The translations under genes and the position numbers were made by a program. Below the pieces are notes generated by a model. The model did no database searches. It saw nothing but the letters and a program-made list of their open reading frames with translations, and was not told the origin of the DNA. Shown here one piece after another: positions 3,208-26,647 of a stretch of DNA of 64,000 nucleotides. The DNA is from Gigantopelta aegis (Eukaryota; Mollusca; Gastropoda; Neomphalida; Peltospiridae). Position 1 is the first letter of the stretch. Every line of letters begins with the position of its first letter. Location of the stretch: contig NC_054706.1 of NCBI RefSeq assembly GCF_016097555.1, positions 43,996,004-44,060,003 on the forward strand, in the 5' to 3' direction.

Positions 3208-3341
3208 GAGTTCGTACGAGAAGCTGGACGAGGTTGAGGAGGAGGAGGTGGAGGTTGAGCCCATGTCTAAGATCCGCGTCATCCTCATGAACATGACTCA
3301 GTTCGGCGTCAACTTCATGGTCCTCCTACTCTGCGTGGAAG
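3208..3341 (+). CDS. MFS exon a: acidic N-terminus and TM1
   Basis: The acceptor is 'tgtccacag' and the donor is gtcagt. The exon has 134 nt, with 1 nt in and 1 nt out. It encodes an E/V-rich stretch, then MSKIRVILMNMTQFGVNF, a typical first transmembrane helix. Confidence 0.75.
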
Positions 3342-6300
3342 GTCAGTCTACACAACAAAACACTCTCATTTACAGTTACAGTGTTGTATTGCTTTTTATT
3401 TCTTCATATAAACTTTCATTCTCCATGCCCATATTCGTGAAATCTCTACTAATAATGGCTGAAAGGTAGTAGCCGGAGAAGCAGGTAAAGGTGAAGGACA
3501 GGGAACAATTGCCCCTCCAGAAAAATATGAAAGAGTGCCATTTTTAATTTAGAAGTGTTCCTTTTGTCTGGCTAGAGGAAACCCTATCGTACTGTGCTCC
3601 GATGTTTTGTTCACTATGCATTTCTATGTGACTACAGTATTTAAATGAGAATTTATTAAAAACATATTTATTTAAAAACATGCATGTTAATACATTTATC
3701 AAGGAATTGTTTGGGTGTTTTTTTATTTCAAGAAATTAATTAATATCAGAAAGTACCAGTTAAATTGTAACAATATATAACTCTGTAACTATATTGTGTC
3801 TGTGTGCCCGGTTCACATACCGTTGCTACGGCCCTGTAAATCAAATCACCTGAGTTTATACTTTATAGTGTATGTTCATGAATACGTAAATAGAACACAG
3901 GGATTGATACGCCCTACGAGTTCCCTGGGAAATGTGTACAAAATAGAGATAATTGATATTGAGACGGAATATTCTTATTAACAAACTTAGTGAGTAATGT
4001 TATGTTTCAATCCAGAACAGAACAGAACAGAACTTTATTACACTCAGGCCGTTATGCAACGGTGTAAGAGACATACATAGTCTGATTTTGACAAGATGGT
4101 TTACAGGAGGATAAAAAAAAAAAGGAATACATTTCTTGGTTCATATATAAATACAAATACAGTACATAGTATTACATTATAAAGATATAAGTATTAACAA
4201 TATAGGAAATGTTTTATTTAACGACGCACTCAACAAATTTTATTTACGGTTATATGGCGTCGGTAACCATATTGATACATGGTATTACATTATATAGATA
4301 TGTGCATTAACAATATGAATACATGATATTACATTATAGAGATATGTGTAATAAAAATATAGATACATTCCGTGATGTAACAGAGTATAGATATATTGTA
4401 AAATATAATTATTCAATTTTATTTTGTCGTTTTAGTAATTCCCGCCCAGGTTGAAGCTTTGGTAGGCAGTGCCGCGAAAGGAACATGCTTTGGTGGGATG
4501 GTGGCCGGTGGAGCAGGTAGGCATTTGATATAAGATAACCCCACCCCAGACTCGATGTGGAGATAAACTGAAATTCATTTAAATCAGAGGGTCTTTCCAC
4601 AGTGAACCAATCTAATTAAAATTAACTCCACTGGTTAATTACTATTACCTGTGGATCTAACAGCACCCCGTTGGAGCTCATATCCAGTTGACCATTCATT
4701 CGACCAATCAAAACCTTACTTGCAAAATCATGCCAGTGATTTGAAAAAACAAACAACCCCATTCTCCCGAATAACGTTATAAAAGGCGAAAGTGTGATTG
4801 TCGATATTAAAATATTATTTATAGACGAAATGTCACCTGGACATGGAAGTCCACGCAATGCTGTTAGATCTACTGGTAGATTAGTAGAGCTAATTTTAAT
4901 CAGATTGACAGTGAACGTACTAATTGTTTAACACATGACAAGTGGAAACCATCCAGTAATTCGAACTTCATAATGTTTGCCTTACTTCTTCTTCATCATC
5001 ATCGTCGTCGTCGTCGTCGTCATCATCATCATCATCATCATTGACGTCATCGCCATCATAATAGTCATCAACAAGTGAAATCATCCAGTAATTCAAATTC
5101 TATGTTTGCCTCATTTCATCACCATCACCATTACCATCATCATCTTCATCATCTTCATCATCATCATCGTCAGTATAACACCTGGTATTAGTGACATTAA
5201 TCCTCTTTCCTAAGCCAATAAAATGCAAAAACAAAAGCTGAGACAACAACCAGGGCCTCCCGTGTGAGACGGGAATGTGCGACGGGTATTTCCTTATCCC
5301 AGAATCTCCTCCAACTCCTCCAAGAATAAGTGTGCCACTAGACTCAAACAGGAAGTGGAGGCACATACACGTACAGGCACTTCACGACTTGTAAGTTGTA
5401 CACTGATTTGAAGAGAACGCACCACGTGCTATCCCACCTGTAGGAGTATGCTGCTAGTATTTTAAAATGTCCGTGTTTGGTAGCATTTTAAAAGCTAAAA
5501 GATTTGCGTGTCATAATCATCATAATCATTTTGATATGGTCGTGATGGTGGTGTTGATAATAAAAAGGGTGTTGAGATCCAAATTGTAGCTTTGTACTTC
5601 TGTTCCAACAAGGTCGGGACATAGCCCAGCGGTAAAGCGCTCGCCTGATGCACAGTCGATCTAGGATCGATCCCCGTCGGTAGCCACATTGGGGTATTTC
5701 TCGTTCCAGCCAGTGCACCACGACTAGTATTTTAAAGGCCGTGGTATGTGTTATCCTGTCTGTGGGATGGTGCATATAAAAGATCCCTTGCTACTAATGA
5801 AAAAAGTGTAGCGGCTTTCCTCTAAATCTATATGTCGAAAGTATCAATGTTTGACACCCAATAGCCGATGATTAATAAATCAATGTGCTCTTGTGGTGTC
5901 AGTAAAGAAAACAAACTTTAACTTTAATTGTTCCAACAATGTTCCAGCACGCATATGCAGTGTGTCCGGGACGCAGATATACACATTGGTCTGGAAATAA
6001 GCTCTACAATTTAGCACGGCCAGGTTATTAATTACCATGTAATCTATGTCCGTCCCAGCACTCCCTCATTACCTTATGACTGGTTAATTAAGGGAGTGGC
6101 GACATGTGTGTGGTTGTTTCTACAAACTAATGTCATATAATACTGCCAGCCACAGATACACTATATCCTGTTAATTGATATATATATATATATATATATA
6201 TATGAATGAACTTAATTGATTTTCTACAAGTACTAATATCAACAGAATAAACAATCCAAGATATAAATTTGATTTTCGTGAAATTTTACATACTCCTCTT

Positions 6301-24800: not shown

Positions 24801-26647
24801 ACACGAGGCGGTGATGGTGGATATTTTAATTGACTAGATAGAGACATCAGGTACCAAACGCCAAGACAGAGGCTGTGATGGTGGATACTGTAGTTGACTA
24901 GATAGAGACACCATTTATCAAACGTCAAGACACGAGGTGGTGATGGGGGATACTGTAATTGACTAGATAGAGACACCATTTATCAAACGCCAAGAAACGA
25001 GGCGGTGATCGGGGATACTGTAATTGCCGTAGTACGTAGGCATGACTCTATTATGTTAGGTGTGAATGGCTGACGATTATATTACGCAAGAGATAGTTTC
25101 TGGCGTCTGTTTCTGTTGTTTGTGCCAGTACGTAGCATAGATGTAAGGCAGATGTGAATAACGGCCGTGGTTTACGAAGATGAACCTCTCTATACCAAGA
25201 CAACAATGTAGGACAGACAAATGGCGGCCTTAGTTCACGAAGAAGAAGCTATCTATGTTATCTTTGTTACATATGTTATTACATAGATGCTTTACATTTA
25301 AAATACAGCAGTTTTAAGTTAGAAAGATGAGGCTTCCTATGAAATAACATCGATTTAAAACACGTTCGGAATGATAGCCTTGGTACGAACATAAAATTTT
25401 CTTTTTGTGCCATTAGTCATTACGTAGATATACAGGACGGTCTATTCCAGTGAATGAATCAGGTGTAGACTCAGAATACAGAACACACAGGCAGATTCTT
25501 TTTCAACGTGTAGATGCATTAAAGGTACAAAAGACCTGTCTCGCTTTAAGAAGACGGTCACTTACCAGCGGCAGTGACAATAATCTTTCTTCGTCCGGTT
25601 TTATCAGAGATGATCCCCAAAATCACAGAGCTGCAATAACAATCACAACACTATATGTACTAAAGATTTAGTCATCAAAGTAATATATTGGTAAGTTACA
25701 ACTTTGCAAGTTATTTTCGTTCATATATATATTCTTGTTGAGTTTATTCCTCCTTTTACGTTACAACTTATTAAATGGCAAACAAAATACTACTTTAAAA
25801 TATATACTATACATGTTTGGTATGTAATTCAATTATAGTGTTTCTACTGACGATATAGACAGCCTACTCTATGGCTGCTGGACCTCTAAAAAAACTTTAG
25901 TGTTTCTACTGACGATGTAGACAGCCTACCTTATGGCTGTCTCCACTCTAAAGAACTTTAGTGTTTCTACTGACGATATAGACAGCCTACTCTATGGCTG
26001 CTGGACCTCTATAGAACTCTAGTTTTTCTACTGACGATATAGACAGCCTACCTTATGACTGCTGGACCTCTATAAAACTCTAGTATTTCTACAGGCGATG
26101 TAGACAGCCTACCTTATGGCTGCTGGACCTTTGAAGAACGCTAGTGTTTCTACTGATGATACATACAGCCTACCTTACGACTGCTGGACCTTTAAAGAAT
26201 TCTAGTGTTTCTACTGATTATGCATACAGCCTACCTTATGACTGCTGGACCTCTAAAGAACTCTAGTGTTTCTACTGACGATGTAGCCCGCCTACCTTAT
26301 GAATGCTGGACCTCTGAAGAACTCTAGTGTTTCTACTGACGATGTATACAGCCTACCTTATGACTGATGGACCTCTAAAGAACTCTAGTGTTTCTACTGA
26401 CGATGTAGACAGCCTACCTTATGACTGCTGGACCTCTAAAGAACTTTAGTTTTTCTACTGACGATGTATACAGCCTACCTTATGACTGCTGGACCTCTAA
26501 AGAACTCTAGTGTTTCTATTAACGATGTAGACAGCCTACCTTATTGCTGCCGCCCCTAGCATTGGCAGCATCATCATGGCCACCGACGTAGTTGCAGTCC
26601 AGCAGTTTGGCAGTTCGACCATGTCGTCAAGCCAATATTCCAGAAAT
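21582..26647 (-). CDS. MFS transporter, C-terminal half (4 phase-matched exons, 5' incomplete)
   Basis: Read 5' to 3' on the minus strand, the exons are 26540-26647, 25566-25630, 22319-22408 and 21582-21853. All have consensus splice borders and exactly matching phases. The joined product begins FLEYWLDDMVELPNCWTATT, then a TM helix, the second MFS signature GIISDKTGRRK, TM helices around FVMGSGALVDAFIRG and YYIAIVMAFLFGIGFGAF, then SVDFALVMDVLPKEKDKAKD and PQAVATPIGG. The last helix is followed by KIRRAN-stop. SVDxALxxDVLP and DxAVWxxALxLPQ are typical of bacterial-type/SLC45-like MFS permeases. It is the same protein type as the N-terminal half on the plus strand at 3.2-8.9 kb. Introns hold a 2.6-kb satellite and a minisatellite made of splice-donor copies. 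Confidence 0.8.
22040..22115 (-). repeat. LINE-like 3' end, 'ATAAAATATGTTTCAATC' family
   Basis: 'gattgaaacatattttgttg' with 'acaaatggattgggcacaag' is shared with 37455-37545, 45935-46115 and (inverted) 61385-61550. The poly(A)-signal-like AATAAAATATG at the end suggests a LINE 3' terminus. Confidence 0.55.
22319..22408 (-). CDS. MFS exon
   Basis: 90 nt (2 in, 1 out). The acceptor is 'gttttctttcag' and the donor gtaagt. It encodes FVMGSGALVDAFIRGSSAYY and IAIVMAFLFG, a TM hairpin. Confidence 0.82.
22458..25026. repeat. 65-bp satellite array, about 40 units, intronic
   Basis: The unit contains 'gactagatagagacatcgtg', 'caaacgccaagacacgaggc' and 'ggtgatgggggatactgtaa', with 65-bp periodicity. 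A 9-unit block starting near 23535 recurs near 24119 (about 584 bp apart), a higher-order repeat. One unit at 22628-22692 is an inverted half next to its direct half. Long minus-strand open frames here come from the repeat and are not genes. Confidence 0.95.
25030..25560. other. intron, nothing recognised
   Basis: Between the satellite and the 65-nt MFS exon. No repeat or coding feature is recognised. Confidence 0.5.
25566..25630 (-). CDS. MFS exon with second signature motif
   Basis: 65 nt (1 in, 1 out). The acceptor is 'gttattgcag' and the donor gtaagt. It encodes SVILGIISDKTGRRKIIVTA. The D-K-T-G-R-R-K loop between TM8 and TM9 is the C-domain counterpart of motif A. Confidence 0.85.
25838..26539. 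repeat. 61-bp minisatellite carrying splice-donor copies
   Basis: The unit contains 'tgtttctactgacgatgtag', 'acagcctaccttatgactgc' and 'tggacctctaaagaactcta', recurring every 61 bp about 11 times. It directly abuts the MFS exon at 26540. On the minus strand each unit contains ATAAG|GTAGGCTG, matching the true exon end and donor. Confidence 0.93.
26540..26647 (-). CDS. MFS exon: TM7/TM8 region
   Basis: 108 nt (1 in, 2 out). The acceptor is 'aaatatttag' and the donor gtaggc. It encodes FLEYWLDDMVELPNCWTATT and SVAMMMLPMLGAAAI. It is the most 5' exon joined with confidence. Confidence 0.78.

Follow-up and report, generated by a model that had tools for sequence, protein, structure and literature searches.

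How a single gene for an MFS transporter could come to lie in two oppositely oriented halves is the question raised by a stretch of 64,000 nucleotides from the gastropod Gigantopelta aegis (C8:43996004-44060003; hereafter the window), in which exons for the N-terminal part of the protein lie on the plus strand and exons for its C-terminal part on the minus strand. The main text of the genome paper gives 1.15 Gb in 15 pseudo-chromosomes with 37.22% G+C (PMC7895826); the window has 37.29%, and the genome searches reported here covered an assembly of 1,149,253,464 bases in 5,216 contigs. Three gaps, each a run of 200 Ns, interrupt the window (10280-10479, 40523-40722 and 56574-56773), the first two being those which the original prediction had noted between the halves and at 40523. 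They delimit contigs A (up to 10279), B (10480-40522), C (40723-56573) and D (56774-76998), with contig E (77199-100061) following; only the initial part of D, on the plus strand (56774..64000), falls within the window, and positions above 64000 are window coordinates extended into the same scaffold, from the 40 kb downstream. We think it likely that a single MFS gene runs along the plus strand over A, D and E, and that B is a redundant, misplaced and inverted second version of the D/E stretch.

The front of the gene is borne by contig A in four plus-strand exons: E1 (3208..3341) encodes the N-terminal segment and the first transmembrane helix (TM1, and so on for the others), E2 (4436..4516) TM1-TM2, E3 (8027..8132) TM2, the motif of loop 2-3 and the start of TM3, and E4 (8903..8947) TM3. 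All four have AG/GT borders and a single continuous frame passes through the whole set; E1 to E3 are in addition placed by a profile of 419 positions, made from eight bacterial MFS proteins from the neighbourhoods described below; the N part matches its positions 15-115 with 61.7 bits. The earlier identification of these exons as an N-terminal TM1-TM3 part is borne out on all these counts. In the 1.149-Gb assembly the N part was detected at a single place: of five genome-wide matches at E up to 10, three fall in the exons of A itself and the remaining two are weak (E 0.42 and 1.3). At the DNA level, among the 40 of 32,829 candidates that were scored, there was no second genomic copy of positions 3000-9300 apart from repeats.

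The back of the gene, as seen in the window, lies on the minus strand of contig B. The four C-terminal exons that had been proposed all exist, namely M1 (26647-26540; end of TM7 to TM8), M2 (25630-25566; loop 8-9), M3 (22408-22319; TM9-TM10) and M4 (21853-21582; TM10-TM12 and the stop), with AG/GT borders and a single continuous frame to the stop, such that the claim of regular internal phasing holds for each of the two sets. The C-terminal set was, however, incomplete, as two more exons precede M1: a 42-base exon for loop 6-7 (37370-37329) and M0 for TM7 (31336-31270), found by a six-frame profile search with 14.4 bits. The phase is kept between these two and onward into the exon that follows, giving B six minus-strand exons in total (37370-21582) from the loop before TM7 through the stop. 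M1-M4 match the bacterial profile at positions 257-418 with 124.5 bits, and with the loop 6-7 and TM7 exons added, the C part reaches 158.6 bits and starts at profile position 225. The 42-base exon was also considered as TM4 in frame 1, a reading that was rejected: frame 2 gives an in-phase junction with the TM7 exon and a match to loop 6-7 of the bacterial proteins.

The profile matches of the N and C parts therefore identify the halves as the two ends of one kind of protein, in which the eight exons first recognised leave about 140 profile positions, from TM4 to TM7, uncovered. A tblastn of the C part against plasmids gave 75 records, and many of the places among the 40 listed are annotated as MFS transporters. 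Matches to both parts lie about 1.2 kb apart or less on one strand in four of the 25 N-part records listed (NZ_AP024648.1, NZ_CP076350.1, NZ_CP108509.1 and NZ_CP117882.1), and in NZ_AP024648.1 they fall within a single reading frame. Four of the eight bacterial neighbourhoods are annotated at the match, with the MFS gene beside a GH3 protein, an alpha-galactosidase or a sulfatase, or alone (one each). A single pattern scan of viral contigs gave nine pattern matches and no relative.

Against Pfam, the N part passes MFS_2 and the C part MFS_1, and the joined exons, with those for TM4 and TM5 described below, score 80.2 bits for MFS_1 (PF07690; cut-off 33.4) and 58.5 bits for MFS_2 (PF13347; cut-off 27). 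The alignment, made without a topology prediction, accounts for the exons of eleven helices (TM1-TM5 and TM7-TM12), and it is over these that the snail protein resembles the MFS_1/MFS_2 transporters and the bacterial relatives that stand beside glycosidases. It differs in that its gene is an intron-rich animal gene with TM6 not located, and in that it falls far short of narrower models, both the GPH symporter model TIGR00792 (21.8 bits against a cut-off of 231.35) and the sucrose symporter model TIGR01301 (19.5 bits for the N part against 511). Among solved proteins, the nearest to the C part by sequence is QacA (E 6.5e-05), and the N part matches SUC1 (E 0.013) and SLC45A4 (E 0.071-0.077) over only about 41 residues. 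Hence, the earlier assignment to one MFS protein stands by the Pfam cut-offs, whereas its SLC45/GPH-like style appears to be a resemblance and not a demonstrated membership. Its family would make the product a membrane transporter with an alternating-access mechanism; transport of a sugar-like substrate together with a cation is only a guess, made because of the MFS_2 similarity and the glycosidase neighbours of some bacterial relatives.

The original prediction held that 10480-40522, i.e., contig B, may be inverted. It is indeed reversed relative to a counterpart, but that counterpart shows it to be a copy of 69.4-97.9 kb and not a unique second half. The best reversed chain between B and D/E has 17 collinear blocks with a score of 14,025 and a mean identity of 88.3%, and extends from B 10480-10945 (paired with 97948-97469) to B 39169-39499 (paired with 69738-69413), a few of the blocks being repeats. 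Seven control chains, comprising B forward and, each on both strands, C and two overlapping 30-kb stretches of A, score 769-1,281. With gapped columns excluded, identity is 91.6-98.2% in the eight block alignments that hold B plus D or E; three of nine three-way alignments are poor for the unplaced contigs C3459 or C4189 (59.8-61.0, 84.8-85.9 and 73.6-76.9%), partly on account of cut stretches that have no full-length correspondence. The exons are repeated as well: on the plus strand of D/E, 74220-81380 carries loop 6-7 (74220-74261), TM7 (76284-76350), M1 (about 79342-79446) and M4 (about 81120-81380, with a nine-base in-frame deletion) in order and with intact borders. The statement that the plus strand has no C-terminal exon is thus correct inside the window but not beyond it. 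Genome-wide, the C part gave eight matches in three places, namely B (minus), D/E (plus) and C3459, which has TM7 to M4, including M2, with a stop in M3; B is the only version with an unbroken M1-M4 set. In E, the stretch at about 79438-81120 is without the 3.87 kb that bears M2 and M3 in B, with the break falling where a 61-bp minisatellite ends; this loss could possibly be an assembly collapse or a repeat-mediated deletion.

Part of the missing middle is likewise found on contig D, whose plus strand has one exon for TM4 (67666-67767) and one for TM5 (68729-68805); both have canonical borders, and their phases agree. Their addition raises the N part from 21.5 to 39.4 bits for MFS_1 (thereby above the cut-off) and from 34.9 to 44.6 bits for MFS_2, and the joined exons from 62.5 and 49.9 bits to the values given above, as well as from 205.0 to 214.9 bits against the bacterial profile. 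All four matches of a genome search with TM4/TM5 lie in contig D or at C8:46.12 Mb. In tblastn searches none of A, B, C, E, C4189 and C3459 gave a good copy, with a single 42% match on B at E <=0.05, and the unplaced contig C3574 showed just the last ten residues of TM5. Between the 37370-37329 exon and TM7 on B, nothing convincing emerged for TM4-TM6, nor was there a convincing exon bridging E4 and TM4 among the candidates listed. Reversing 10480-40522 brings both halves onto one strand in the right order, as the original prediction said, but would not by itself give an entire gene: TM4 and TM5 have their exons on D, with no good counterpart detected on B, and four of the six B exons are repeated on D/E.

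Further contigs bear on how these pieces are ordered. C3574 has, in plus order, the terminal repeat of A plus some 75 bases to the left of it, D 59.8-61.4 kb and D 69.1 kb. C4189, also unplaced, has the 69.1-kb sequence, then the repeat of B's 40522 end, and then B's 39.1-37.6 kb, an order that fits a flipped B. A third contig, placed at C8:46119900-46130493, carries on one strand an A-type repeat (70 bases, 91%), D 59.8-61.1 kb, TM4 (100% at the protein level) and TM5. This contig also has an extra 1.3-kb element between TM4 and TM5, resembling D 63.2-64.5 kb. Since it places TM4/TM5 exons of the transporter 2.06 Mb away on the other strand, misplaced versions do occur in this assembly. Together, the linking contigs support an order that leads from A through D 59.8 kb and D 69.1 kb to loop 6-7, where a flipped B could take the place of the end of D and of E. 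No link reaches leftward into the unique sequence of A, so that the case for joining A to D is made by the repeat, the strand, the order of the exons and the single N part.

These patterns suggest the following course of events. The plus-strand gene would run from A (E1-E4) to D (TM4, TM5, loop 6-7 and TM7) and on to E (TM7 to the stop); scaffolding would have set B, a second version of D/E, between A and C the wrong way round, and the back part of the gene would thereby appear again on the minus strand. Of the components of this reading, the continuation of A into D/E, the origin of B, as a false heterotype duplication, from the other haplotype and the attribution of B's orientation to a scaffolding error are each what we consider most likely. 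As for the material, the assembly was made from PacBio reads with Canu and wtdbg2, and scaffolded with 3D-DNA in diploid mode with manual correction thereafter; the Hi-C specimen dates from 2019 and other specimens from earlier, 2015 (PMC7895826). Neither "purge" nor "haplo" occurs as a word in the main text of that paper (PMC7895826).

Several observations weigh against a gene over A, D and E with B as its other allele. The chain covers only 10,652 of B's 30,043 bases (35%). There are three versions from loop 6-7 or TM7 to M4, and two alleles cannot yield three. M2 and M3 were not found in E, and the plus-strand version as assembled would lose frame. E4 ends with two leftover bases, which is a phase mismatch with the TM4 exon of D. 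The TM4 and TM5 exons were themselves recognised by eye among lists of open frames: in the six-frame profile search the TM4 frame has 1.4 bits at the wrong place in the profile, and TM4 plus TM5 alone score 4.8 bits against the bacterial profile, a value reached by three of 1,000 shuffles. No convincing TM6 exon was present among the candidates listed. Of the linking contigs, C3574 skips from 61.4 to about 68.8 kb, without TM4 and most of TM5, and in the contig at 46.12 Mb, TM5 matches in two frames, implying an indel; with A the two share only the terminal repeat, to which C3574 adds the flank. Finally, two unplaced contigs intended to show the usual level of divergence between alleles turned out to be multi-copy repeats, unusable for that purpose.

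The strongest rival, which we hold to be possible though rather unlikely, is a real inverted segmental duplication, with repeated copying of the back part and a genuine inverted placement of B between A and D/E; on this view B, C3459, C3574, C4189 and the 46.12-Mb contig would be partial paralogues without the N part, some of them decaying. The three versions are about equally distant, as this would have it (M4 in B, D/E and C3459 differs pairwise at 95.2, 95.3 and 95.5% identity), and one N part is found against three C parts. The stop in M3 of C3459 and the loss of M2/M3 in E would be the decay. A DDE_1 transposon in B's copy (31406..35329, plus strand) points the same way: it has perfect 26-bp terminal inverted repeats, a duplicated TA and a frame with many short tandem repeats, we take it to be pogo-like, and it must have entered B's version after the D and C3459 versions had parted, since these have empty sites. 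Against such a duplication, B occupies precisely one contig between gaps, and the remaining versions either are unplaced or lie 2 Mb off on the other strand, as is expected for misplaced haplotigs.

The simple flip, by which B would supply the one and only second half of the gene on A and need just be turned in place, has become very improbable: although it brings the B exons onto A's strand in the correct order, is consistent with C4189 and C3574, and would make use of an M1-M4 set unbroken in B alone, it is opposed by the repetition of B's exons and the location of TM4/TM5 set out above. It is scarcely credible that B is a real inversion holding the sole unbroken M1-M4 set, with the full mRNA arising by trans-splicing of plus (A, D) and minus (B) transcripts, and just as far-fetched that two independent convergent paralogues broke, one N-only and one C-only, as the original prediction had allowed, for although each strand bears one end only within the window, the assembly shows a single N part and three C parts, with back exons also downstream on the N part's own strand.

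The preferred reading, with B as a redundant version of D/E, has a parallel in a described type of assembly error. Heterotype duplication is the term of the Vertebrate Genomes Project for such a false duplication (PMC8081667), and B shows one of its features in being bounded by gaps and a collinear repeat of another stretch. As in the published type, the contig between gaps has its counterpart close by on the same scaffold, from which it differs by a few percent of substitutions and many indels, and exons seem duplicated (PMC8081667). In contrast to it, B is reversed relative to its partner, contig C lies between them and there are at least three versions. The likeness to STARD5 of the greater horseshoe bat, which a true inversion has split (PMC8081667), lies in the exons of one gene standing on opposite strands; the inverted snail exons differ in being a copy of exons that are also on the plus strand.

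The window has some further features. On the plus strand of B, in a stretch without a block in the chain with D/E, 14280-15083 is an open frame of 268 residues with OTU protease-like and F-box segments. In contig C, two abutting minus-strand frames at 54785-56176 have transposase domains (DDE_3, with weak HTH matches under the cut-offs) and are presumably of the Tc1/mariner type. Also in C, 52341-52739 and 47040-47267 (minus) give weak TNFR_c6 and TACI-CRD2 matches under the cut-offs together with a transmembrane-like frame, and may represent exons of a gene resembling those for TNF receptors. A repeat some 300 bp long, very common and, we assume, like a short interspersed nuclear element, occurs at 5612-5918, 8969-9278, 35814-36114 and elsewhere, in many introns here and on many scaffolds.

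In light of the above, the split and inverted look of this gene is most likely a scaffolding artefact that is ordinary as biology. Short gap-bounded contigs of this assembly can be redundant and misplaced, and an apparent 30-kb inversion calls first for a check for a nearby second copy. For the snail and its transporters, this means broken or duplicated gene models at this locus, and counts of transporter paralogues or of split genes that were taken from the scaffold would be wrong.

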